From Methanolobus profundi (lineage in GTDB: Archaea > Halobacteriota > Methanosarcinia > Methanosarcinales > Methanosarcinaceae), in assembly GCF_900114835.1 (NCBI RefSeq), contig NZ_FOUJ01000001.1, positions 124,001 through 188,000 on the forward strand: 64,000 bases of DNA, in the 5' to 3' direction. How positions within the stretch are numbered: the first letter of the stretch is position 1; each line of letters begins with the position of its first letter. Of this stretch, positions 15,310 through 28,622 are shown piece by piece. The position numbers and the translations under genes were made by a program. The notes under the pieces are model-generated. The model saw nothing but the letters and a program-made list of their open reading frames with translations. It had not been told where the DNA came from and searched no databases.

Positions 15310-15768
15310 TTATCTTGTGATCAGCATCTCAGCGGTTTCTGGCTTGTATTTCCAGTCTGCTGGGAGTACCTTTGTGGACTGGTAGTATTTTACCAATCTT
15401 CTGATCTTGGACTCTGTGTTCTGGAGGGAACGCTTGTTGTGTACATCCTTGTGGTTGTAGCTCATGTGTTTCCTCATAGCGATAGCCTTTACGATAAGGT
15501 TGTAGAGGTCCTCAGGTACTGCGAAGCTCTCGCCGTTGTCCTTAAGGATCTTTGTGACCTTCTGGCCTGTTGCGATCTTTATGTCAGGTACACCATACTT
15601 GTCCCTGAGGATCATACCGATCTCGCTTGTGCTGATTCCCTGTTTCCAGAGGTCTTTTACTACTTCTGTCACTTCGTCGCTGGTCATTGTTGACCATGCT
15701 GGTGCTTCTGTACGAAGTGGTCTTGTAGGTCCGGAGTTTCCTTTCCTACGGGTGTGCATTTTTGCCAT
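15310..15768 (-). CDS. rps15: 30S ribosomal protein uS15
   Basis: The 152-residue length and N-terminal extension ([19 protein letters not shown]) are typical of archaeal/eukaryotic uS15. The core has [19 protein letters not shown] and the C-terminal [17 protein letters not shown]. It binds the central domain of 16S rRNA. The ATG follows AGGAGGAAG. The upstream region (15814-15896) carries two perfect inverted repeats that may be part of the leader RNA. Confidence 0.96.
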
Positions 15769-15813
15769 AATCTTCCTCCTGATAATTGAAAGTTAAGTTT
15801 TGATTTAATTTGT

Positions 15814-15843
15814 CTATATTGGATTAGATAGGATCCAATATAG
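15814..15843 (-). promoter_or_regulatory. Perfect inverted repeat in the uS15 leader (proximal)
   Basis: CTATATTGGAT and ATCCAATATAG form an 11-bp perfect inverted repeat with an 8-base loop, 46-75 bases upstream of the uS15 start. As RNA it would form a stable hairpin in the leader. Confidence 0.5.
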
Positions 15844-15860
15844 AATTGATGTTTTGATCC

Positions 15861-15896
15861 TTATCGAACTCTTGAACTTGGGAGTCGGTTCGATAA
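15861..15896 (-). promoter_or_regulatory. Perfect inverted repeat in the uS15 leader (distal)
   Basis: TTATCGAAC and GTTCGATAA form a 9-bp perfect inverted repeat enclosing 18 bases that contain an internal ACTC/GAGT pairing. It lies 17 bases upstream of the first inverted repeat. Confidence 0.45.
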
Positions 15897-15943
15897 TATG
15901 TAAATATGATTGGCGAAGTGCTACCTATGAAGTCGATCATATC

Positions 15944-15952
15944 ATATATATG
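15944..15952 (-). promoter_or_regulatory. Possible TATA box of the uS15 gene
   Basis: The minus strand reads CATATATATGATATG here. Initiation about 25 bases downstream would place both inverted repeats in an mRNA leader of roughly 150 nt. A weaker box (CATATTTACA near 15900) would exclude most of the distal hairpin. Confidence 0.35.
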
Positions 15953-15991
15953 TTATGATTGAGGGAGTACTTCTTTTCAGGTGATAAATCC

Positions 15992-17203
15992 TCACCATAC
16001 CATCAGTACAATATCAGCACCAGCAGGATTTGCTGTTCTGTATATCGCATCTAACTGGGTACTGGCAAGTTCATATCTGCTGCTGTTGTCCGTGGCGTTG
16101 CACATGAGTGCGATCGCCATGTCAATATCATCTGCATGCTGACAATTCATATGTTCAGAGATGAGCCTTTTATTCTCATCCATTATTAGAGTGTTGACAG
16201 TATTCACAATGTCCAGTTCGATACTTTGCTCTTCTTGGTCGATCGTTACTGTGAGGCCGTACAGGTCATTAACAGTATAGTTCATACATCCAAGGACACT
16301 CTGTATGACAGGACTGCTGTAATTCTGTGTATCAGGTCCGGTAAGACATGCCAGTTGTTCACTGTCAACCGAAATTTCAGTACCGTTGAGCGAGGACAGA
16401 TATTCGTAAGGAAATACGATCTCTGTGATCATCTCAGCACATCCTGTTGATGCGATCAGGATACTGTCATTGAACATTTTATGAAGTTCATCATCAGGGT
16501 CAGGGGAATTCATGGCAGCATAGATCGTGCTGTCATTGAAAGGTCTGTATATATCGTCCTTTGTAACGGAAAAGGTCACAGGCAGGGATATTCTTGCTTT
16601 CTGTTTAGCAGCGTTCACGGGTGCTTCCTCTCCTACTACGATCTCACTCTGCACCTTGTAGCCTGTAACAGGCTGCCAGTGAGCTTCGAACCTGTAATCA
16701 TACCTTTGTCCTATGGTCCTTTCAAGATGTGCTTCTATCTGCTTTTCGGTCTCTACACTTTGCATCTTCGTCATAGGATTGAGAACTTTTGTTGTACTGT
16801 TATCTTTCTGATACAGGCTGAGGACCAATCCTTCTGCTACAAGGTCTGAGAATGTACGATGTCTTTGTTCTTTTGAGAATATTGTCTTCTCGGCATCCTC
16901 AAGCAATGAATCCTCTGAAATATTGACATTGATGCCTGCCAGTTCGGCAGGTTTGAGCGTATATTCAAAATCATCTACTGTGCTGCTCATAATGGTGTTC
17001 AGGAGGTATGTGTCCATATCCTGTGCAGATGTGTGGGAAGCAGAATGATATTGTCCATTCGCTGCGATCGATGGCATAAGAATGACCGCAGAAACAGATA
17101 CAAGTATAAGGAACAGGATCGCATCGATACTGGTTGAGAATGCTGCCTCGTCCTTTATTATTCCTGACCTGTCTGCTTTATGATAATTTTCGGATATTGG
17201 CAT
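15992..17203 (-). CDS. Membrane-anchored extracellular protein of pilin-like cluster (403 aa)
   Basis: No specific function is recognised. A charged N-terminus (DRSGIIKDEAAFSTSID) precedes one hydrophobic helix (about residues 24-46), the arrangement of archaeal pilin-like and Tad-associated proteins; the remainder is an extracellular domain with N-x-S/T sequons and several cysteines. The ATG at 17203 has GGAG 6 bases upstream; an ATG at 17215 is the alternative. It is the last of four tightly packed minus-strand genes after hisS. It resembles the haloarchaeal DUF728x group of co-located proteins, but this is a recollection of family style, not a search result. Confidence 0.7.
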   Translation of the reverse strand: MPISENYHKADRSGIIKDEAAFSTSIDAILFLILVSVSAVILMPSIAANGQYHSASHTSAQDMDTYLLNTIMSSTVDDFEYTLKPAELAGINVNISEDSLLEDAEKTIFSKEQRHRTFSDLVAEGLVLSLYQKDNSTTKVLNPMTKMQSVETEKQIEAHLERTIGQRYDYRFEAHWQPVTGYKVQSEIVVGEEAPVNAAKQKARISLPVTFSVTKDDIYRPFNDSTIYAAMNSPDPDDELHKMFNDSILIASTGCAEMITEIVFPYEYLSSLNGTEISVDSEQLACLTGPDTQNYSSPVIQSVLGCMNYTVNDLYGLTVTIDQEEQSIELDIVNTVNTLIMDENKRLISEHMNCQHADDIDMAIALMCNATDNSSRYELASTQLDAIYRTANPAGADIVLMVW

Positions 17204-17232
17204 AGTGTTCTCCATTGTTTGTCAGATAGTTC

Positions 17233-17736
17233 TCAATTCCACAGGTTTTGGGTGATCTTCACGGTGATCGTCCCTGGTACACATCTCACATTGCTTCCAA
17301 GTTCAATGACCACAGGTACTGATGCCGCAATGATGTCCCTGCCATTCTGAGAGCCTGTTCCATCATCGATCGTCCAATGATACCTATTATCGTCGGTAGA
17401 TACCTCTACAAAAAGGTCGATATTTTCCGAGAATCGCTGGAAGAACATGTATCTCTCCTCCTTTGCTGAAGGAGATGCTATTATGTCAAGTGCTTCAGCT
17501 GATATCAGCTCAGGCCGGCTTCCCTGAAGAGGTGGATAGGCTGCGATGTCCTTTGCTATCATGGCAGCCTGTTCGTAACTCTCAAGTGCATTTGAATTGT
17601 CATCAAAAGCTATGAAGGTCTTTGACAGGATCGCTGCAAATACCATAAAACCGATAACCACAATAGCAATGGATATTATGTCGTTGTTGGGCTCAAGAAA
17701 AGCTCTCTCATCACTGGTGAACGAGGATATACTCAA
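17233..17736 (-). CDS. Pilin-like membrane-anchored protein (167 aa)
   Basis: The N-terminus SFTSDERAFLEPNNDIIS is followed by one hydrophobic helix (about residues 19-43) and an extracellular domain of about 120 residues. A short charged leader, one N-terminal helix and a small beta-rich domain recall pseudopilins. The start is TTG with GAGGTGA 6 bases upstream, inside the end of the previous gene (26-bp overlap). The RAFLEP segment resembles the haloarchaeal minor pilin-like DUF families. Its role is unknown. Confidence 0.7.
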   Translation of the reverse strand: MSISSFTSDERAFLEPNNDIISIAIVVIGFMVFAAILSKTFIAFDDNSNALESYEQAAMIAKDIAAYPPLQGSRPELISAEALDIIASPSAKEERYMFFQRFSENIDLFVEVSTDDNRYHWTIDDGTGSQNGRDIIAASVPVVIELGSNVRCVPGTITVKITQNLWN

Positions 17737-18385
17737 GTTCTCTCACCTCGCTTCCATCTGTTACGAAGACTGATGCCTGCTCAATTATGACATCTCTGCT
17801 TGTGTTCAAGTATAGTTCTTCTGCTGCTGTACTTGAGAGCAGGTCTGTTACATCTGTATATGGGAAGGGTGAATTTATCGGCTGGTCCCTGGTCCCGTCA
17901 GCAGCAAATTTACCTGTCAGTACCGATCTGAGGTTTTCGGGACTGAACGGTACTGTCCTGTAACTGAGAGCTCGGGCAGCACAGATGGTATTTCCATCAT
18001 CCTCAAAGCTACTGGTCACATATTCTCCAGTAACAGAGATATTCAGTCTTTCGTGAGAAATGAGCTGTCCTGCGTATGTGTCGAATACGTAAGTGACAGT
18101 AAGGTTCTCTGTTCCCGGATGAATGCTACCTGCAGAATCAATATGTGATGCAAGGTCAACTGTGATAAGTTCCAGTTCGTTCTTTTCGATAACATCTGAT
18201 GAACTGGCAGCCAGTGCATACACTGCAGTAAGAATGACCACACTTGCAAGGATGAGTGCCGTTTTTGAAAGTATGAGGTCTGCCCATGCTCTGTCATTAT
18301 CGATTAACTGGCATATCATGTCAGTTGCCGGGTCTGGAAGGTTATGGCAGACCACATTAACTTCTTTTCGTTTTTTCATCTTCAT
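17711..18385 (-). CDS. Pilin-like membrane-anchored protein (224 aa)
   Basis: A cytoplasmic N-terminus of about 40 residues (with NDRAWADLILSKTALIL) leads into one membrane helix (about 40-60), then an extracellular domain rich in Thr/Ser and N-x-T/S sequons. It overlaps the upstream gene by 4 bases (ATGA), a sign of translational coupling. The end, EYILVHQ, runs into the next start. It is probably a structural or assembly component of the same surface structure as its neighbours. No known domain is recognised with confidence. Confidence 0.7.
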   Translation of the reverse strand: MKMKKRKEVNVVCHNLPDPATDMICQLIDNDRAWADLILSKTALILASVVILTAVYALAASSSDVIEKNELELITVDLASHIDSAGSIHPGTENLTVTYVFDTYAGQLISHERLNISVTGEYVTSSFEDDGNTICAARALSYRTVPFSPENLRSVLTGKFAADGTRDQPINSPFPYTDVTDLLSSTAAEELYLNTSRDVIIEQASVFVTDGSEVRELEYILVHQ

Positions 18386-18873
18386 TGCGACTTATCACAA
18401 AGTGCAATAAAAATTTTTCCATTTTGATCTCGAACACTTTCCATAGTTATCGTGTGTGGTCCGGGGCTGAGGATGAAACAGCCGTCAAGTGTGGCATTAG
18501 AATAGTATGCAGCAGATTCGCCATTTATCTGCTTATCTTTTATCTTAATATAGTAGTTACGAGCATCAGTGGGCCAGCTAGCTTCCTCGTTGGGAATTGC
18601 TCCCATGGCAAGTTCTGTATTGGGAGGAACATCTATGTCAAGTGTGATATTGCTGCCAGCCCCTTTTGAGGACATTTGTTCAGCATGTGCCTCTATCTCA
18701 GAAATGATGGTCTGAGCAACGTATACCTCTTCCTTTTCAAGAAGGGAATTGACACCGGTGGTAAGCAGGAACAGCAATGCCCCTATTGCAATGACCGCTA
18801 CTACCATCCTCATAGGGAGGGCATCAGCTGCCCTCTCATTGTTCAGTATCTTTCGAAATGGGTCACTGCTCAT
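18382..18873 (-). CDS. Pilin-like membrane-anchored protein (163 aa)
   Basis: The N-terminus [18 protein letters not shown] precedes one hydrophobic helix (about residues 22-41) and a small extracellular domain of about 120 residues. Its ATG overlaps the hisS stop codon by 4 bases, so it is translated from the hisS message. The motif [10 protein letters not shown] before the helix parallels NDRAWADLI and DERAFLEP in the next two genes, suggesting a shared processing or membrane-insertion signal. Confidence 0.7.
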
Positions 18874-20105
18874 CTGTCTGTGAGTTTTTGAATGACCTCA
18901 TCGATGGTCAGTAGTTCCTGTTCGCCGCTGCTCATGTCCTTTAGCATGACCTTACTGGCTTCAACTTCCTTCTCGCCGATGATCAGCACATGTTTTGCAC
19001 CCATATTGTTGGCATAGGATAACTGGGCTTTGAAGTTCCTTTTCATCAGATCATTGTAGACCGGCATGTGTTCTCTGAGCTTATTGGCTGCTTTTATTGC
19101 ATCAAGACGTGTGCTGTCCTTTGCTATGATCACAACTGGGACATCATCAGGTGTTTCAAGCTCACAGACTTCCATTATCCTGTCAAAACCAAGGCCGAAA
19201 CCTGTTGATGGAACATCTCCGCCTCCAAAGAGCTGGATCAGCTGGTATGAGCCGCCGCCACAGACCTGGTTCTGTGCACCAAGTCCTTCTGCGTATATCT
19301 CAAAAACAGTTCCTGTGTAATAATCAAGTCCTCTGGCAATTCCAAAGTTTATTGTGTATTCCACGCCGTAGGCATCCAGCATGGTAAGAAGTTCCTGGAA
19401 ATCATCTATCTCAGGAAGGTCTCCCAGAATATCTCTTGCTTTTGTAATTGCATCATTGCCTGTGAGTGAGATCAGCTCGATAAGTTTCTGACGAAGGACT
19501 GCAGGAGCGTTTATCTCCTCAAGGAAAGTATCTAGTCCTTCGTAGTCCTTCTTGTCCACAAGTCTCATTATCTTGCTCTGTTCCTCACTTTCCAGAACAC
19601 TGAGAAGATGTCTGATAACTCCAAGGTTGTTTACGTTCAGGTCGCCTTTTATTCCCACGGTTTTGAGCATCTCTGTTGCAAGAGCAATTACTTCGGCATC
19701 AGCATCCATTTTTCTGCTGCCTATAAGTTCAACACCGAATTGCCAGAACTCTCTGAAGCGTCCCTTCTGTGGTCTTTCGTACCTGAAGCAGTTCTCGAAG
19801 TAGTACAATTTCAAAGGCTGTTGATGTGCCTGCATCTCGTTGACATACATCCTCATTACCGGTGCTGTAAGTTCAGGACGCAGGGTCATTTCCCTGTCAC
19901 CTTTATCTTTGAAGTTATAGAGTTCTCCTATGATGCCTTCACCGGATTTGAGTGTGAAAAGTTCCAGGTTCTCGAAAGTAGGTGTGATCACCTCGCTAAA
20001 ACCCCAGTTCTTTACGACCTGACGTAAGATGCTCTCTACATACCTTCTTTTCTTAGTGTCCTCCGGGAGGAAGTCACGGGTGCCTCGTGGTTTTGTGATC
20101 TTCAT
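18870..20105 (-). CDS. hisS: Histidyl-tRNA synthetase
   Basis: This 411-residue class II synthetase has motif 1 near the N-terminus ([16 protein letters not shown]), motif 2 [14 protein letters not shown], the histidine-binding [14 protein letters not shown] and [14 protein letters not shown], motif 3 [13 protein letters not shown], and the C-terminal anticodon-binding domain. The length is normal. It is the first gene of a minus-strand unit whose four downstream members encode pilin-like proteins, an unusual pairing. Confidence 0.96.
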
Positions 20106-20424
20106 TTTTTGTCAACCTGATGATTGTGAATTGCTGATTACGATGGATGAGCTGCTGAAGCAATGATGACCTTCTCTGGCCTGATTTTTATCAGAGCTTA
20201 TGTTAATTATGTCTGCTAGTATTAGGGTAGTATATTTTACAGTTTCGATTAGTTGTTATTAAGTTCTTCCTGTGTTCAGTATTTTTCTCCTTTTTGATAA
20301 TATGAAAATGAATATCATATATTGTTTATAAATTTTACATTAAAATAGAACAAAATAACAAAGTTTAAATATTCTCTTATCCTGCTTTGCTCAGTTCACA
20401 TTAGAATAAAAAACGGGTTCATTC
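20106..20424. promoter_or_regulatory. Divergent promoter region between hisS and the giant exoprotein gene
   Basis: This 319-bp AT-rich gap has no coding features. Plus-strand TATA candidates are TTTATAAA at 20325-20332 and TTTAAATATT at 20364-20373; the second would start transcription near 20395. No strong Shine-Dalgarno precedes the ATG at 20425. The hisS start on the other strand has a weak AGGTTGA. Confidence 0.5.
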
Positions 20425-23400
20425 ATGAGATCAGATGCTTCAGGTAAAAAACGTAGTTTCTTCCAGGATACACAGGCTTATATTCCGTTTGCTGTGATCG
20501 GTACTTTCGTTCTTCTCTTTGCTGTGATCTCATCGGTATATATAGCAAAGACGGATTATGAACTTGCAGAAGTGATCTACACCACGGATACAACGGATAT
20601 GAAAATGGAAGAGAATGCTATTGATTTTGCTTCTGCTGACCTTGCACGGTGTCTTAATTATGCAGGGATGAAGGCTCTGGCCTGGCAGGGTGAGCATCCT
20701 GTGATAAAACCTGAGGATCTCACATATGAACAAATGGATTTAGATGGTTTCTACGTTGCTGCTGCGAGCAGGGAAGCTGAACCCGGAGATACGATAAAGG
20801 TATCTGTCACTCTTCCATCGGATGTATTCCAGGCGATATCATGTCTCTTTTCAGAAAAGACCAGAACACTTGTCCTTAAGAGCGATTCCGGTACGGTCTA
20901 TCAGACCATAGATTACAATGAGACGCATTCATTCTGGACAAGTTCTGAATTTGAAGAGGAACTGTTGATCCCTGAGAATGCAGAATATGGGTATGCTTAT
21001 CTTTTCCTTGAATATGATGGTGAAACAAAGGCTTTGAACTGGTTACATGTGGGCAGCAGTCCTTTGAAAGATATCACAGTCGATCACTTCAATGAGTATC
21101 TCCAGACATCCTATCAGGAGAACCAGCACACTTTCAATAATTATGCTATCAACATAGAACCGAATGTAGACCCTTTACAGATACGAATAGACCAGATCAA
21201 TGGCACACTGAAAAGGGAGATCAGCAGATCAGGTGCTGATAATCCTGTTTATCCTTTATATTATACTATGACCGTGGAAGATCTGAACTATACTCTTGTG
21301 GACCTTAGTGCCAATACTTCTGTGAACGGTTCAATGAATGTGACCGCTCTGATCACTTCAAGGGAGCCTCTTCTGGAGCAGCTTGTTAATGAATATCAGG
21401 ATGAACTGGATGGTGGTGTGGCTTCGGATATAGTTCTTGGTGCCACCAATGTCCGAACTTTTATCTATGGCCCGTGGCAGCATTATATGAATGGTCCTCT
21501 GAACATCGTAACAGGTCCGTCATTGTCTGCTTCTGTGAATGCCGGAACGTTGTACACTCAGAAGAGGATATTCGATTCTGTGGACCCCTGGGCCCTTACA
21601 TATACTACATATTACAACGGCAAGGTTCTCTATGATGATGTAAAACACGATACAAGTGAGTACGAAGATGATAAGAAAAAGAATCTGAGCACAACATATG
21701 ATGGTCTGTCTGAAAAGGGAACTTTCAACATAAGTATTGCTCAGGGCATCAATGAGTCCATGAAGGATGCCAATGTAAGCATGGAGGACGTCTCTAATAA
21801 TTCAAAGATAGTGGTATCAGTTTCTAATTTCACAAATGAAGTTTACAGCAACTGGGTCTACAATGATGTCGATGAATGGAGCAATGACGATCCTGACCTG
21901 TTGCATGATGTAACACATGATGTGTATAGTGGTACGATACAGGGTCAGGTCTTCAGGGATGGGTTCAACAGTGCTGTTCCTTATGGTCTGTGGGTGGGCT
22001 CTACGACCTATGATTCGGTGTCATATCAGGGAGGTGAGTCAAAGGCTGATAAATACATCACATGGACCAGCCATCATCCGGTCTCGATATCGCATACATG
22101 TGCTATATCTCCTGACTATATTTTTAGTGATGTTCTCGACCTGGACCACAAAGTAAGTGTAGATGCTTCCTCTCATGAGTGGTATTTTAAGAGTGTAAAT
22201 GTGGAACATGTATCCACAAATCTCGTTTGTGAAGGTGTGGATGTGACCTACGATTACATAGGCAATGATAATGTGGTTGATCTTGAAAGGACAGATGGTT
22301 ACCTGTCCCGCGAAAACCATACTTTTGACTGGAAGGTCACGTACAATGTTAATTTCAAGGCTAGCACACGCTGGAATATCTATTATACATATCACTGGTC
22401 GTATATGACATATAACTCAGCTACAGGAAGCCGTAATTATTTTAATGGGGATTCTTCCGGTTCACTGACCAACTATCAAATTACTGATGTGGTCACTATT
22501 CCTCATACTGAAACAGAGACCGAATACATAAGCATCGTTTATCATCAATATCTTCCATCCGGTGGATACTCTGGCATAGATTCGGTCTACGATCCGGGTA
22601 CTTCCAATGATTACAGGAACACAACGGTGATCATCAATGGTGTCCAGCAGAATGATCCCGGATGCAGTGATGCGGCCGATAAGTATCGTGATCAGTATGT
22701 TGACCTGTACGAGATAGAAAAGGGCTATTCCACTTACACGGATGGTACATCTCTTCCTGATGAGAAGGTCTACTGTGATATTCCTTCATGGCTTCACAAG
22801 AACATGAGCCAGGAAATGGAGAGCATGTTCGATGCTATCAATGAAGATGACCCCACACGTGAAGTTTTTCTGTTGGGTGAGAACCTTGGGAAGAACCCCA
22901 CAACATTGATCCAGGAAGCTTCGCTGGAACTTGCCGATGAGATGTCCGATCCTGCAAAGCGTGAATCCTTCATTGAACAATATCAGTACATGAACATGAG
23001 CCAGTTCAACACAAGCAGTGATGCCAGTCGTGCCATTGCGAAGAATGAGGCATATGACCGCCTGATCCATGAACTGCGGGAGCGTAACAAGGGCGTAGAG
23101 GATACTTTTGAGGACTACATCGAGACATCGTTCGAAGAAGAGCAGGGTCATTCCCTTCTCGACCTTGTCAAAAACAAGGTTTCCACCGATGTGATATTCA
23201 ATAATCCTGCAATGGATATGGCCTCCACGGCACTGGCATCGGAAATGGGTATCATTGAAACTATAGAGGTTGTGGGGATGCCTGACAGTAAGTACAACTG
23301 GACCGAGAATATGACCCTTGTTGTGGACCAGTATCCTGATTATCTCTACCATGACCCTGAGTTCGATCTGCAAAGCCAGTATAACTGGACAGATTCGTCA

Positions 23401-24489
23401 GGCAGGAGGGTGTATCCTTTGGCTGTTCGCAATATCTGTATCTTTTCTACAGGTATCGGTGATGATATTGCAGAAATATTGCAGTCTGCTACAGAACCAC
23501 TGAAAGATGCAGTGTCACAGTCCATGAGCCAGAGCATTGCTGATGCGAACTCCGAGGTGAATTCCCTGCTTGATGATATCGCGGAAGATAGTGTGGATCT
23601 GACCATGAATGGCATGTCAACAGATATGACTCTTATCGAGGAGAACCGAACCAGAATGATGACGGCATACAGCAGCAGTATCAGGGAACAGATTCCGGCA
23701 ACAATTGCTGATGAGATTGCAAACGACCCTGTTCTCAGCACGTGGATAAGCCACTCTGATACCGTCCTGATCTCTGAGTCGTATCTTGATTCCCTCTCCG
23801 ACGAGGAGATTGTAAGTATGGCCGCTGACAACACCTTACAGAATGAAATTCTTATCATGCTCAGTCAAAAGATCATGGATGACAACCCGACGTTAGCCTC
23901 TGATGAAATGGAAGCAGTGCTATACCGTCTCGAAGCTGATCTCCGTATCGGTGTTGCAGATGGTGTGTGTAAAGGCATAGAACTCTGTCAGGAGACCATC
24001 GATGAGTGCTTCGCCAACATCAACAGTGAACTGCAAGCCAAACTGGATGAATCAAGTGAGAAACTCACAGGCAAACTCGCAGATAAGATTGACCAGAGGT
24101 TGCAGAGGTCGATGAAGATGGTTCCGTGTGGTCTGCCGGTGATTCCTCCGCATTGGGTGTGTACTGTGAATGTGTGGGAGTATGAAGTTATAGGGAAGTA
24201 CAAGGAATTTGAGATTATTGATAATGATAATGAATGCATGTTCAATCCTTATTTCGGGCACGATGCGCAGGTGTATGTGAGGAAAGAAGAACGTATTCCT
24301 CATCCGTTCAAAAGAAACAACAATAATGGGTTTTTATGGATTGGTTACAATGCACCAATAGAGTTTAGATTTGCTGGCTATGCTGCTACAATAGTAGGTC
24401 CTGGTCCAAAAGGCGTTGGCGATAAAACAGGTAAGAGGGATGAAAAATCAGAAGCTTTTGATCAATTAGTATCTGAATGGGAGAATTGA
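20425..24489 (+). CDS. Giant membrane-anchored extracellular protein (1354 aa)
   Basis: A basic N-terminus (SGKKRSFFQDTQAYIPF) is followed by one membrane helix (about residues 20-41) and about 1300 extracellular residues. These are rich in Asp, Tyr, Ser and N-x-T/S sequons, with aromatic beta-strand stretches around 500-720 and a helical, Glu/Ser-rich part around 790-1230. A Cys/Pro segment (VPCGLPVIPPHWVCTVNVW) lies near residue 1232. The N-terminal layout resembles haloarchaeal DUF7286-type proteins, which accompany pilin-like small proteins, as here. No enzyme motif is seen. The next gene starts one base after its stop, so it heads an operon with the sarcinarray genes. Confidence 0.75.
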   Translation: MRSDASGKKRSFFQDTQAYIPFAVIGTFVLLFAVISSVYIAKTDYELAEVIYTTDTTDMKMEENAIDFASADLARCLNYAGMKALAWQGEHPVIKPEDLTYEQMDLDGFYVAAASREAEPGDTIKVSVTLPSDVFQAISCLFSEKTRTLVLKSDSGTVYQTIDYNETHSFWTSSEFEEELLIPENAEYGYAYLFLEYDGETKALNWLHVGSSPLKDITVDHFNEYLQTSYQENQHTFNNYAINIEPNVDPLQIRIDQINGTLKREISRSGADNPVYPLYYTMTVEDLNYTLVDLSANTSVNGSMNVTALITSREPLLEQLVNEYQDELDGGVASDIVLGATNVRTFIYGPWQHYMNGPLNIVTGPSLSASVNAGTLYTQKRIFDSVDPWALTYTTYYNGKVLYDDVKHDTSEYEDDKKKNLSTTYDGLSEKGTFNISIAQGINESMKDANVSMEDVSNNSKIVVSVSNFTNEVYSNWVYNDVDEWSNDDPDLLHDVTHDVYSGTIQGQVFRDGFNSAVPYGLWVGSTTYDSVSYQGGESKADKYITWTSHHPVSISHTCAISPDYIFSDVLDLDHKVSVDASSHEWYFKSVNVEHVSTNLVCEGVDVTYDYIGNDNVVDLERTDGYLSRENHTFDWKVTYNVNFKASTRWNIYYTYHWSYMTYNSATGSRNYFNGDSSGSLTNYQITDVVTIPHTETETEYISIVYHQYLPSGGYSGIDSVYDPGTSNDYRNTTVIINGVQQNDPGCSDAADKYRDQYVDLYEIEKGYSTYTDGTSLPDEKVYCDIPSWLHKNMSQEMESMFDAINEDDPTREVFLLGENLGKNPTTLIQEASLELADEMSDPAKRESFIEQYQYMNMSQFNTSSDASRAIAKNEAYDRLIHELRERNKGVEDTFEDYIETSFEEEQGHSLLDLVKNKVSTDVIFNNPAMDMASTALASEMGIIETIEVVGMPDSKYNWTENMTLVVDQYPDYLYHDPEFDLQSQYNWTDSSGRRVYPLAVRNICIFSTGIGDDIAEILQSATEPLKDAVSQSMSQSIADANSEVNSLLDDIAEDSVDLTMNGMSTDMTLIEENRTRMMTAYSSSIREQIPATIADEIANDPVLSTWISHSDTVLISESYLDSLSDEEIVSMAADNTLQNEILIMLSQKIMDDNPTLASDEMEAVLYRLEADLRIGVADGVCKGIELCQETIDECFANINSELQAKLDESSEKLTGKLADKIDQRLQRSMKMVPCGLPVIPPHWVCTVNVWEYEVIGKYKEFEIIDNDNECMFNPYFGHDAQVYVRKEERIPHPFKRNNNNGFLWIGYNAPIEFRFAGYAATIVGPGPKGVGDKTGKRDEKSEAFDQLVSEWEN

Positions 24490-24490
24490 T

Positions 24491-25096
24491 ATGAACATAA
24501 AAATGTTGATAGTTGTTTTTTTGGTTAGTTTTATGGTAATGCCTTCAACAACTTTGGCCGAAAGCCCACATATTTCTATTGATGTGTATTATAACGATAA
24601 ATTCATTCCTATAACAGAAACTCCAAAGCCATTATTAAAAATTGGTGAGCCTTTCACTCTAAGGTTTGATGTAACGTGTTTAAGTCCCGGAGTTTTATCA
24701 GTGAAGTTAACGGAACTGGCAGATGGTAGTTTTGAGGTAGTTGAGGGCCCAACTTCAAAAATTGATAAATATACTGATAATAAACTCGAGAAGAACGAAA
24801 CTATTTCTTATGAGTGGACACTAAAACCAACAGATGTATGGGCTGGAGGGAATATGCCTCTTGATTTTGTTTACCAGCTAAATGATTTTGATACTATGAA
24901 AGTTCTAGTTCAAGGTGAATTCACCGCCGCCTACGTCACTATCTCCGAAGAGTACTACGATGGTCCTGCAATTCCAGAAGAATCTATAGATGGATTCTCT
25001 GGTGATAGTAGTTCACCTACAACACCTGCTTTTACAGTGCTGTGTGCTTTTTTTGCGCTGGTTGTTGTCAGTGTTTATAGAAGGAAACAGAGGTAG
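24491..25096 (+). CDS. Sarcinarray/MAST-type surface protein, copy 1
   Basis: This 201-residue protein has a signal peptide (MNIKMLIVVFLVSFMVMPSTTLAES), then a beta-rich domain with VYYNDKFIPIT and PKPLLKIGEPFTLRFDVT, and a C-terminal tail SPTTPAFTVLCAFFALVVVS ending YRRKQR, a PGF-CTERM-like sorting signal. The tandem arrangement and these motifs fit the methanosarcinal sarcinarray family (MAST domain). The family's molecular function is unknown. The start is one base after the stop of the giant exoprotein gene. Confidence 0.8.
   Translation: MNIKMLIVVFLVSFMVMPSTTLAESPHISIDVYYNDKFIPITETPKPLLKIGEPFTLRFDVTCLSPGVLSVKLTELADGSFEVVEGPTSKIDKYTDNKLEKNETISYEWTLKPTDVWAGGNMPLDFVYQLNDFDTMKVLVQGEFTAAYVTISEEYYDGPAIPEESIDGFSGDSSSPTTPAFTVLCAFFALVVVSVYRRKQR
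24920..24968 (+). repeat. 49-bp near-identical block in sarcinarray genes, copy A
   Basis: The block starts TTCACCGCCGCCTACGTCAC and encodes FTAAYVTISEEYYDGP. It recurs at 26154-26202 (identical) and 26805-26853 (one difference). It is GC-rich compared with the AT-rich surrounding coding sequence. Confidence 0.85.
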
Positions 25097-25105
25097 GTGA
25101 GAAAG

Positions 25106-25699
25106 ATGAGGTGGATGCTGGATATCATGTGCATAGTTGCTCTAATACTGTTGTTTTCATCACCAGTATCATCGGAAAGTTCCATTCTCAAAGTTGATTA
25201 CTATTATAATGATCAGTTCATTCCCGTAACAACAACTCCAGAACCATATTTGAAAATTGGAGAACCACTAACATTGGCCTTTAATGTAACATGCTATAAA
25301 GAATGCAATCTATCTGTTGCATTGTTGTCATCGTCATATGATATAATCGAAGGTCCAACTTCTAATTTTGGTGATCGCGTATGTCAGGTAATGAGTGAAA
25401 ATGAAACTAAATTCTTTGAATGGATAGTAGCTGCTAATGATAACAGTTCAGGAAGTACAGGGTCCATTAGTTTTCGTTATGATATGACTGATTTGAATCG
25501 TGGATACAAAATTACAGGTGGTGGTCCTGTCATACTTTACGCCAAGATTTCACATTTACACTACGACGGTCCCAAAATCGAAAAAGTCTCTTCTGAAGCC
25601 TCATCATCCAATGAGGGCAGATCACCTACTACACCTGCGTTCACTGCTCTTTGCGCTGTGTTCGCACTGGTTGTGATGAGCTTGTATAGAAGGATGTAG
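25106..25699 (+). CDS. Sarcinarray/MAST-type surface protein, copy 2
   Basis: This 197-residue paralog has the same order: signal peptide, YYYNDQFIPVT, EPYLKIGEPLTLAFNVT, EGPTSNFGD, and tail SPTTPAFTALCAVFALVVMS. It is the most diverged copy; the YVTISEEYYDGP block shared by the others reads YAKISHLHYDGP here. The ATG at 25106 follows AGGTGA; a GTG at 25097 is in frame. It has five cysteines in the mature part or tail, more than copy 1. Confidence 0.8.
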   Translation: MRWMLDIMCIVALILLFSSPVSSESSILKVDYYYNDQFIPVTTTPEPYLKIGEPLTLAFNVTCYKECNLSVALLSSSYDIIEGPTSNFGDRVCQVMSENETKFFEWIVAANDNSSGSTGSISFRYDMTDLNRGYKITGGGPVILYAKISHLHYDGPKIEKVSSEASSSNEGRSPTTPAFTALCAVFALVVMSLYRRM

Positions 25700-25715
25700 G
25701 GTATAGGTGAGAGAA

Positions 25716-26330
25716 ATGAGAGGGTCACAGTGTTTTATGTTCGTTATTTGTCTTATCTTTCTGTTTTCATCACCAGTAGCAGCAGAAAGCCAGTATGGTA
25801 ATATCGAATATTATTACAATGGTCATCTGATTACTGCTTCTGATTCTCCTGAAACGCCAAAGCCACTATTAAAGATAGGAGAACCATTCAAACTGAGATT
25901 TGAAATTACATGCTATAAAAGAAACTTTCTGTCAGTTAAGCTAACGTCAATTGGTGATACTGATTTTGATATTATTGAAGGTCCAACATCCGATTTAGGT
26001 GACTATATAGATGAAACAGTAGAAGCAAATGAAACAAGGATCTTTGAATGGACCGTTGCTCCAAATGAAGAATGGGCTGGTGGCAGTGCTCCTATCAATT
26101 TTTACTATCAAATGACTGATTTGGATACCGCAAAGACCATCACAAATGGTAAGTTCACCGCCGCCTACGTCACTATCTCCGAAGAGTACTACGATGGTCC
26201 TGTAACTCCGGATGAATCCATAGAAGAACCATCTGACGATGGCAGTTCTCCCACTACTCCTGCGTTCACTGCTCTTTGCGCTGTGTTTGCGTTGGTTGTT
26301 GCTACTGTGTATCGGAGAACGCAGAATTAG
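25716..26330 (+). CDS. Sarcinarray/MAST-type surface protein, copy 3
   Basis: This 204-residue paralog has signal peptide, YYYNGHLIT, PKPLLKIGEPFKLRFEIT, WTVAPNEEWAGGSAPINFYY and tail SPTTPAFTALCAVFALVVAT with YRRTQN. It is nearly identical to copy 4 from WTVAPNEE to the end, while the N-terminal halves differ. The ATG at 25716 follows AGGTGA; the GTG at 25707 is in frame. Confidence 0.82.
   Translation: MRGSQCFMFVICLIFLFSSPVAAESQYGNIEYYYNGHLITASDSPETPKPLLKIGEPFKLRFEITCYKRNFLSVKLTSIGDTDFDIIEGPTSDLGDYIDETVEANETRIFEWTVAPNEEWAGGSAPINFYYQMTDLDTAKTITNGKFTAAYVTISEEYYDGPVTPDESIEEPSDDGSSPTTPAFTALCAVFALVVATVYRRTQN
26154..26202 (+). repeat. 49-bp near-identical block in sarcinarray genes, copy B
   Basis: Identical to the block at 24920-24968. 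Downstream identity with copy C continues through the C-terminal coding region. Confidence 0.85.
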
Positions 26331-26372
26331 GATTGAAATACGGTAAGTTATGGATAAAGCTGGGTGGTAAAA

Positions 26373-26975
26373 ATGAAATTAAAACTGGTTTGTATATGCA
26401 TTATATTGTGTTTGCTGCTTCTTTTTTGTCCTCCTGCATCTTCAGAGAGTTCCAATCTTAAGATCGATGTTTATTACAATGATCAATTGTATCCGGGAGC
26501 TTCAACTCCAAAACCATTGCTAAAAATCGGTGAACCATTCACTCTTCGATTTGAAGTAACTTGTTATAAAAGGAACTTTTTGTCAGCCCAATTGTTGTCT
26601 ATTGGAAATAATGATTTTGATATAATTGAGGGACCCACATCAAAATTGGGAACCGGTACTCGAGGAATCATAGAAGCAAATGAAACGAGGATTTTTGAAT
26701 GGACAGTGGCACCTAATGAGGAGTGGGCTGGAGGTAGTGCACCAATTGATTTTTACTACCAAATGACAGATTTGGATTCAGCAAAAACAATTACCAGTGG
26801 CGAATTCACCGCCGCCTACGTCACCATCTCCGAAGAGTACTACGATGGTCCTGTAACTCCGGATGGATCTATAGAAGAACCATCTGATGATGGCAATTCT
26901 CCCACCACGCCTGCGTTCACTGCTCTTTGCGCTGTGTTTGTGTTGGTTGTTGCTACTGTGTATCGGAGAAGATGA
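26373..26975 (+). CDS. Sarcinarray/MAST-type surface protein, copy 4
   Basis: This 200-residue paralog has signal peptide, VYYNDQLYPGAST, PKPLLKIGEPFTLRFEVT, and the same WTVAPNEEWAGGSAPI and SPTTPAFTALCAVF blocks as copy 3. It ends VYRRR. The ATG at 26373 follows GGTGG. It is the last copy of the array; the 327-bp stretch beyond has no recognised gene. Confidence 0.82.
   Translation: MKLKLVCICIILCLLLLFCPPASSESSNLKIDVYYNDQLYPGASTPKPLLKIGEPFTLRFEVTCYKRNFLSAQLLSIGNNDFDIIEGPTSKLGTGTRGIIEANETRIFEWTVAPNEEWAGGSAPIDFYYQMTDLDSAKTITSGEFTAAYVTISEEYYDGPVTPDGSIEEPSDDGNSPTTPAFTALCAVFVLVVATVYRRR
26805..26853 (+). repeat. 49-bp near-identical block in sarcinarray genes, copy C
   Basis: Differs from copies A and B by one base (CACC for CACT in the Thr codon). 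Confidence 0.85.
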
Positions 26976-27302
26976 TTTGCAGAGCAAACTGAATGGCTAA
27001 TCAAGCTTCCAAGAAAAACAATAAATTGCTTGTTCGATTGAAAAGCAAAATTCAGATGAGCCTAGGCAAAAGATAATCAGTACATCCTATTCAGACTGAA
27101 AGAAAATGTATTCTCTAAATGTGTGCTTCAACGCATTAAAAAGAATGCTGAATATGAAAGCTGTTTTTTTAATGTCCCTGAAAGGTAGAGACTTGATATG
27201 TGAAGTAAAGTTTGATGAAACTAAAAGAATAAATTTTAAAGAAATATGAATATATTATGCACTTAGTTTTTGTGTTATGTTTTGTATTTAGAGGTGGTTA
27301 TT
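26976..27302. other. AT-rich intergenic region, no recognised gene
   Basis: The 327 bp between the sarcinarray array and the LVIVD gene contain only short frames, such as a 34-codon one at 27149-27253 with no recognisable similarity or ribosome binding site. TATA-like sequences at 27228-27240 (ATAAATTTTAAAG) and 27248-27257 (GAATATATTA) may drive the next gene. Confidence 0.5.
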
Positions 27303-28622
27303 TTGAATCGTAAAATGTTTTTGTTATTTTGTCTCAGTGTTACTTTATTAGTAAGTATAACTGGTGCAACAACTAATGAAATGAACGTTGAAATTAAAAC
27401 ACATTTAAATTATTCAATAGATGTATTTGCTTATTCAGAGGACTATGTGTATGCAGGTCATGACAGAACATTATCAATAATCAATATAAGTGACCCTATA
27501 AATCCAATATTAGAAGGAAAGTACGAAGCAAATGACTTTATTCGCAAAATAGAAGTTGAAAAAAATATTGCATACATAGTTGATGGAGACAAACAATTTA
27601 GCATCATCAACGTAAGCAACCCAAAAAATCCTTTTGTTGAAGGAAAATATACTTCGTCTGAGTACATATCTACATTTGCTATCAATGAAAACTTTGTATA
27701 TACTGCTGAGGGAAGATATCTTAGAATAGTTAATGTAACTAGCAATAAACATCCAACTTTGAGAGGACAATACAAAGTAGTGTACAAAATAGTGCGTGGA
27801 AATAGAACTCAAGAAATTATAGATGAGATTTCACATATTGAGCTAGAGAATGACTTAGCTTATGCTTCGATTCAAAATTGTATGTTTATAATTAATGTGA
27901 ATGATCCTGACAACATTTTTCTTGAAGGAAAATATTTAACATCGAGCCACATAAAAAATATTGATGTAACCGAAACCATTGGATATTTAAGTTGCTGGAT
28001 GGATGGTTTTTTAGTAGTAAATTTAAATAACCCCAAAAAAATCTCTCTAATCAATAACCATTATATTCCTAAATCAAAGAATAGTGGAACTATATCTACG
28101 AGAAACAAAGATTTTATGGCAATAAAGCAGGTTGTTACGGAAGGGAATTTTACATATGTAATTGGAGATGAAAATCAATTTGTTATTTTAAATAGTAGCA
28201 ATCCTAAAAACATATCAACTGAAGCATGTTTTAGTATCATTGAAAGAAATGACTTTGGAAAAGCAACTCCTGCTTTCGAAGGATACAGTGATAGGACAAA
28301 ACTACTTGATTTTGAAGTTGAAGATAATCTAGTATATTTGGTTGATCGATATAATGGACTTACTATATTGTCTTTTAACGACAATTTAAATGGTGCCAAT
28401 GAACTCGAAATTGTAAGTGAAAATGATACTAGATTATTGAATAATACTGAGCAAGTAGAACAAAATAGCATTAATAAAACTAAAATTGATGATAAATTGC
28501 ATGATAAAAAATTTGAAGAACTACCTTTAGAATCTAATAATAGCTCCAAGATTCCAGGGTTTGAAATTACATATTCTTGTATAGTAATTATTATTTTGTA
28601 TTGTGTGAGGCGTTTGTTTTGA
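27303..28622 (+). CDS. LVIVD-repeat surface protein with PGF-CTERM-like tail
   Basis: This 439-residue secreted protein has a signal peptide (NRKMFLLFCLSVTLLVSITGA), then at least five repeats of about 40-50 residues with the pattern YVxxxxxxLxIINxSNPxNPxxEGKY, typical of LVIVD beta-propeller proteins on archaeal surfaces. The tail PGFEITYSCIVIIILYCVRRLF is a degenerate PGF-CTERM signal. The TTG at 27303 follows GAGGTGG; an ATG at 27315 is too far from that site. Codon use is strongly AT-rich compared with the rest of the window, which suggests recent acquisition or relaxed selection. Confidence 0.8.
   Translation: MNRKMFLLFCLSVTLLVSITGATTNEMNVEIKTHLNYSIDVFAYSEDYVYAGHDRTLSIINISDPINPILEGKYEANDFIRKIEVEKNIAYIVDGDKQFSIINVSNPKNPFVEGKYTSSEYISTFAINENFVYTAEGRYLRIVNVTSNKHPTLRGQYKVVYKIVRGNRTQEIIDEISHIELENDLAYASIQNCMFIINVNDPDNIFLEGKYLTSSHIKNIDVTETIGYLSCWMDGFLVVNLNNPKKISLINNHYIPKSKNSGTISTRNKDFMAIKQVVTEGNFTYVIGDENQFVILNSSNPKNISTEACFSIIERNDFGKATPAFEGYSDRTKLLDFEVEDNLVYLVDRYNGLTILSFNDNLNGANELEIVSENDTRLLNNTEQVEQNSINKTKIDDKLHDKKFEELPLESNNSSKIPGFEITYSCIVIIILYCVRRLF

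Follow-up and report, generated by a model that had tools for sequence, protein, structure and literature searches.

Candidate minor pilins and a giant putative tip protein of a probable, scattered 4F-type archaeal pilus in Methanolobus

Four small pilin-like proteins (A to D) and one giant exoprotein (E) encoded in a Methanolobus genome probably serve an archaeal type IV filament of the subclade 4F kind, the small ones as minor pilins and the giant as its distal subunit, a reading to which we assign a probability of about 0.7; that A-E belong to a pilus is well supported. We see in it a known type of archaeal pilus whose genes have become scattered, and we found no experimental study of that type. 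Its parts are held at four separate loci here (the motor, the minor pilins, the giant and the candidate shaft pilins), and this scattering of pilus parts in Methanosarcinaceae is new, as is the tie between E and the sarcinarray surface proteins (F), which we observe in four or more lineages.

A pilin-like gene cluster and a giant exoprotein gene on either side of hisS

The window, by which we mean the whole stretch of 64,000 nucleotides that was analysed, is C7:124001-188000 of a 3.1 Mb genome (G000). A preliminary description from the letters alone had reported four minus-strand genes for single-helix proteins and a gene for a 1354-residue giant, and all five open reading frames are present: A (163 aa, 18382..18873), B (224 aa, 17711..18385), C (167 aa, 17233..17736, with a TTG start codon and overlapping B) and D (407 aa, 15992..17215) on the minus strand, and E (1354 aa, 20425..24489) on the plus strand. 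That layout had overlooked the histidyl-tRNA synthetase gene hisS (18870..20105, minus strand), which separates A from E and shares 4 bp with A, as well as four plus-strand sarcinarray genes behind E. The first of these encodes F1, a sarcinarray/MAST surface protein with a Sec-type signal and a sorting-type tail at its C-terminus (24491..25096), and is followed by its paralogs F2 (25097..25699), F3 (25707..26330) and F4 (26364..26975); they score 163, 101, 152.7 and 156.7 bits against the sarcinarray model TIGR04209, all above its cut-off of 45 bits. Downstream of D lies rps15, for ribosomal protein S15 (15310..15768, minus strand). The spacer between D and rps15 (15769-15991, minus strand) folds more stably than its shuffles (z -4.3) and contains two strong hairpins, possibly a terminator or leader structure.

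Each of A-E has a single hydrophobic stretch, located N-terminally. In archaeal prepilins, one transmembrane helix follows a site with G, A or S at position -1 and a charged residue at -2 (PMC4371748), and A, B, C and D conform to this rule. The residues before the helix are NERA in A, NDRA in B (then WADLILSK), DERA in C (then FLEPNNDI) and DEAA in D, so that the charged motif reported for three of the small proteins is indeed seen in A, B and C. The giant was rightly said to share this N-terminal layout, with DTQA ahead of YIPFAVIG and its one helix; position -2 is an uncharged Q in this strain, most Methanolobus orthologs have DTRA, and D-x-R-A is the consensus before the helix in alignments of both the E and D families. 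The rule of a charged residue before [GAS] is lenient and such sites are common by chance, for which reason we did not take matches to it as proof. The genome contains one gene for an A24 prepilin peptidase. Beyond its helix, E consists of an extracellular region that in ortholog alignments ends in a conserved Cys-containing C-terminal domain.

Family membership of the small proteins and the giant

We compared the proteins with haloarchaeal families that form an operon with the order DUF7310-DUF7311-T2SSE ATPase-TadC-DUF7283-DUF7285-DUF7284-DUF7286. The Pfam gathering cut-off is 27 bits for DUF7284, DUF7285, DUF7286 and DUF7311, and two of our proteins exceed it: D matches DUF7284 (PF23955) with 56 bits over profile positions 1-171 of 278, and E matches DUF7286 (PF23957) with 117.1 bits in two stretches, the best at 957-1344. 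The idea of an undescribed structure therefore does not hold, since D and E already fall into named families and the haloarchaeal operon carries both an ATPase and TadC. For C, the match to DUF7285 (PF23956) reaches 14 bits, and that of its ortholog in L113 23.7 bits, both under the cut-off; in profile-profile comparison C and DUF7285 match at 98% (E 3.8e-14). Similarly, the Pfam search gave no match of A to DUF7311 (PF23993) at the cut-off of 27 bits and its Methanoperedens ortholog scored 25.9 bits, and profile-profile comparison of A with DUF7311 gave 94% (E 1.1e-7). Iterated HMM searches led from A to haloarchaeal DUF7311, from C to DUF7285, from D to DUF7284 and from E to DUF7286. Because the formal cut-offs are missed, we call A and C remote homologues of DUF7311 and DUF7285 as judged from sequence profiles, not formal members. 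B appears to fill the DUF7283 (PF23954) slot with only weak similarity (p 0.009-0.019), which is collinear over 97 columns and better than that of B to the other two families. A search of A-D against NCBIfam returned chance-level matches only.

The suggested kinship with haloarchaeal DUF728x clusters is thus borne out by D, E and the remote homologues A and C. Of the profile relationships looked for within DUF7283-DUF7288, those of C, D and E are found and that of B is weak, whereas A goes to DUF7311 instead. The Methanolobus genes resemble the haloarchaeal operon in that D and E belong to its last two families and A and C are remote homologues in the same order. They differ in that the ATPase and TadC do not lie between A and B, E lies across hisS, sarcinarray F is added and A has a leader, haloarchaeal DUF7311 starting directly with the helix.

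Conservation and rearrangement of gene order

The order hisS-A-B-C-D-rps15 is kept in loci of other Methanosarcinaceae genera, with the hisS neighbour conserved in L095, L113-L117 and others, and E has orthologs in 35 of 60 relatives; for these reasons A-E are real genes. In Methanosarcinaceae the A-B-C-D genes are flanked by hisS and rps15; the E gene is found at another place or, in most Methanolobus, on the other side of hisS. The preliminary description had raised the possibility that adjacency is conserved in relatives, which is the case for the A-B-C-D order but not for E, unlinked in most Methanosarcinaceae genera. Likewise, its divergent arrangement of giant and small genes applies to Methanolobus, but the two are collinear in Methanocella and Methanoperedens, where A-B-C-D-E-F form a single run, and in haloarchaea. 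A C-D-E-F run also occurs in three MAG contigs labelled Thermoplasmata/Thermoplasmatota (L223, L228, L234), outside Halobacteriota, for which binning error or transfer is possible.

An unlinked ATPase/TadC pair that matches the haloarchaeal motor

Any assembly machinery had been expected to lie elsewhere, and a matching pair, which we call pair H, is encoded on contig C8 (ATPase, L111:8302-10878; neighbouring TadC, L111:10859-12805). Eight clear secretion ATPases of the genome were compared; a ninth above the cut-off, on C16, was left out. The haloarchaeal operon ATPases match the pair-H ATPase with E of 1e-79 to 1e-92 and the seven others with 1e-29 at best, and given this score gap the others (labelled A, B, D, E, F and G in the ATPase set, and ArlI) were rejected as drivers. 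Haloarchaeal TadC proteins match the pair-H TadC, which the Pfam T2SSF model does not detect, with E of 1e-67 to 1e-78, and there is no clear second match in the genome. By sequence, pair H is thus the one clear ortholog of the haloarchaeal ATPase/TadC in this genome.

The distribution of these genes bears on whether pair H and the pilin-like proteins work together. Of 38 haloarchaea, 36 have a platform-H homolog no more than 8 kb away from DUF7286. The preliminary description had asked whether genomes with the cluster also carry a Tad-like ATPase. Across 295 Halobacteriota genomes, the C8 family of TadC occurs together with DUF7286 in 72; in 4 and 4 genomes only one of the two is present, and 215 have neither. 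DUF7284 co-occurs with the C8 TadC family to a similar degree (Fisher p about 1e-53 to 1e-58 for co-occurrence, uncorrected for phylogeny). D and E are common to 69 of these genomes, with one alone in only 7 and 2. We also observed that platform, D and E decay in parallel: G007 has both D and E as fragments, with a stop within E; in G266, D and E are absent and TadC survives as a remnant interrupted by 14 stops; in G251, TadC is broken, D is partial and E is absent; and G005 and G006 lack all three. The exception is G004, in which the platform is kept, D is a 44-residue remnant only, and E and F are gone.

Assignment to subclade 4F and candidate shaft pilins

Subclade 4F pilus systems, as described by Makarova, Koonin and Albers in 2016 (PMC4858521), occur in Halobacteria and methanogens and have an ATPase with a Cys-rich N terminus, a coiled-coil component (arCOG07564) and tandem stand-alone pilins, the major pilin being of the PilA family (arCOG02981); an FtsZ-like gene lies near some of the haloarchaeal loci. 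Here, 12 Cys fall within residues 1-249 of the C8 ATPase, compared with 1-7 Cys over the whole length of the other ATPases compared, and a four-Cys cluster is common to its haloarchaeal orthologs. The T2SSE ATPase plus a TadC cognate to this pilin set, as in 4F, are found in pair H. Candidates for the coiled-coil component are DUF7310 in the haloarchaeal operon and a coiled-coil protein with a transmembrane segment that is encoded beside pilins on contig C16 and beside A in Methanocella. The C16 locus (C16:401950-402819) contains two tandem pilin-like genes, one of them without a leader, and a divergent coiled-coil gene; a similar tandem pilin/coiled-coil arrangement is found beside TadC in a related family. 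In a haloarchaeon, a CetZ tubulin-like gene (L092:13175-14317) adjoins DUF7284/DUF7285. Given the Cys-rich C8 ATPase, the CetZ gene near the haloarchaeal locus and the tandem pilins with a coiled-coil gene, we file the system as putatively 4F-type.

It resembles the 4F systems of PMC4858521 in the Cys-rich N terminus of the ATPase, in TadC and in having several pilin-like proteins, and differs from them, as far as they are set out there, in that its parts are spread over four loci. The giant-sarcinarray pairing and the Thermoplasmatota members go unnamed in the main text of PMC4858521, whose supplementary tables may list them.

Pairing of the giant with sarcinarray proteins

Outside haloarchaea, which have E without F, an F gene lies directly 3′ of E almost without exception, across families and in the Thermoplasmatota MAGs. 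Methanosarcina acetivorans, a laboratory strain open to genetic work, has matches to DUF7284, DUF7286 and TIGR04209. TIGR04209 has 56 matches in 60 genomes, and all but about four of them (G033, G037:C60, the first copy in G044:C188, and G056:C73) stand beside an E tail or belong to an array that follows one. F1-F4 are members of the sarcinarray TIGR04209 / MAST domain TIGR04204 (NCBIfam) families, here tied to E. Papers found by literature search assign no partner to the sarcinarray family, and searching with the DUF names and sarcinarray yielded one table mention only; the sarcinarray proteins are most likely a previously unrecognised partner of this pilus.

In Methanosarcina-type genomes, extra copies of the E tail (268-445 aa, leaderless, 76-91% identical to the intact E) follow the intact E-F pair (L089:10660-16425, L198:11787-13207, L210:11929-13853), each succeeded by one F that is merely 42-87% like other F proteins. 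These leaderless copies are possibly silent cassettes. When close species are compared, E is 91-95% alike over its first 900 residues and 83-86% alike over its last 420, which fits a fast-changing or recombining tail, although switching is not proven by this pattern. It is tempting to speculate, as a tentative and somewhat doubtful extension, that E and F together make a changeable tip, in which F is matched to the C-terminal domain of the giant, and that tail-plus-F cassettes in Methanosarcina and related families recombine with the expressed E gene, varying tip recognition in the way of silent pilin cassettes. If so, Methanosarcina and related methanogens would vary what the pilus tip recognises.

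A model for the filament, and other explanations

Tip complexes such as T2SS GspH-I-J-K and the minor pilin-PilY1 complexes of type IV pili consist of small minor subunits and one much larger distal subunit. The layout of A-E is alike, an analogy only, as we found neither sequence similarity nor a fold match to these complexes. In the AF2 model of D (pLDDT 74), an N-terminal helix of 55 residues leads into an alpha/beta domain; a 932-aa homologue of E is modelled with helical and beta domains (pLDDT 70). Searches against the PDB gave no significant match to a pilin or any solved fold for D (Foldseek, VIA) or for the E homologue (Foldseek); VIA returned helical bundles and ribosomal S3-like matches for D, with Z below 6, and a family not listed there is possible. 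With no filament observed and no solved structure matching either model, we infer the tip role from layout and genetics, not from structure.

In the model that we favour, a PibD/FlaK-type peptidase, the product of the one A24 gene, would remove the short leaders, and the C8 ATPase and TadC would extrude the helices from the membrane. A-D would assemble into a small complex that starts the filament, like GspH-I-J-K or PilVWX, and that brings E to the distal end of a shaft made by a separately encoded pilin, for which the C16 pair is a candidate. Surface-anchored F may then bind or receive the C-terminal domain of E, and the likely task would be attachment to cells or surfaces.

The same subunits could instead build a type II-secretion-like machine, in which a short pseudopilus built of A-D and E drives F or other exoproteins across the S-layer, with no long pilus being made. 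The combination of several small single-helix subunits with a single very large one is reminiscent of GspK with GspH-I-J, and the coupling between E and the secreted F is tight; against this, F carries a Sec-type signal of its own and is anchored at its C-terminus, archaea lack an outer membrane, C16 offers tandem candidate shaft pilins and the closest systems among those described in PMC4858521 are adhesion pili, so we regard a pseudopilus as rather unlikely. We consider it improbable that E, F and the small proteins make up a membrane-bound surface complex, for example an S-layer accessory, whose prepilin-like anchors are not assembled by ATPase/TadC. Such a complex would explain why no motor gene lies near any of these genes in Methanosarcinaceae, as well as the imperfect leader motif of E and the leaderless state of A in haloarchaea, but it is difficult to reconcile with the ATPase and TadC in the haloarchaeal operon (36/38 linked) and with an unlinked platform that co-occurs with D and E genome-wide and decays in parallel with them. 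Chance proximity of separate surface genes would suit the distance of E from A-D in most Methanosarcinaceae genera. It is effectively refuted by conserved operons, namely the A-B-C-D-E-F run in Methanocella and Methanoperedens and C-D-E-F in Thermoplasmatota MAGs, and the many genomes that share D and E against the few with one alone speak against it too; we give it almost no credence.

Under the pilus reading, at least five families of unknown function (DUF7283-7286, DUF7311, sarcinarray) would become one testable machine, with its motor named in a genome where linkage gives no clue and the system extended to Methanoperedens and Thermoplasmatota MAGs. Pilus genes could then scatter and join housekeeping genes (hisS, rps15) and yet be inherited together. 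Certain relatives within this order live in close association with partner cells, which makes the binding target of such a pilus ecologically interesting.

Two further observations concern neighbouring genes. Downstream of the sarcinarray array, the window encodes an LVIVD-repeat surface protein (27270-28622) in a stretch of lower GC, about 36%. On C16, near 402.4 kb, the pilin-like gene L180:1486-1965 has lost the leader that its homologue L179:993-1472 has, and a divergent integrase gene (L180:1983-3170) lies directly against its 5′ end, which looks like the insertion of an element at this pilin gene.
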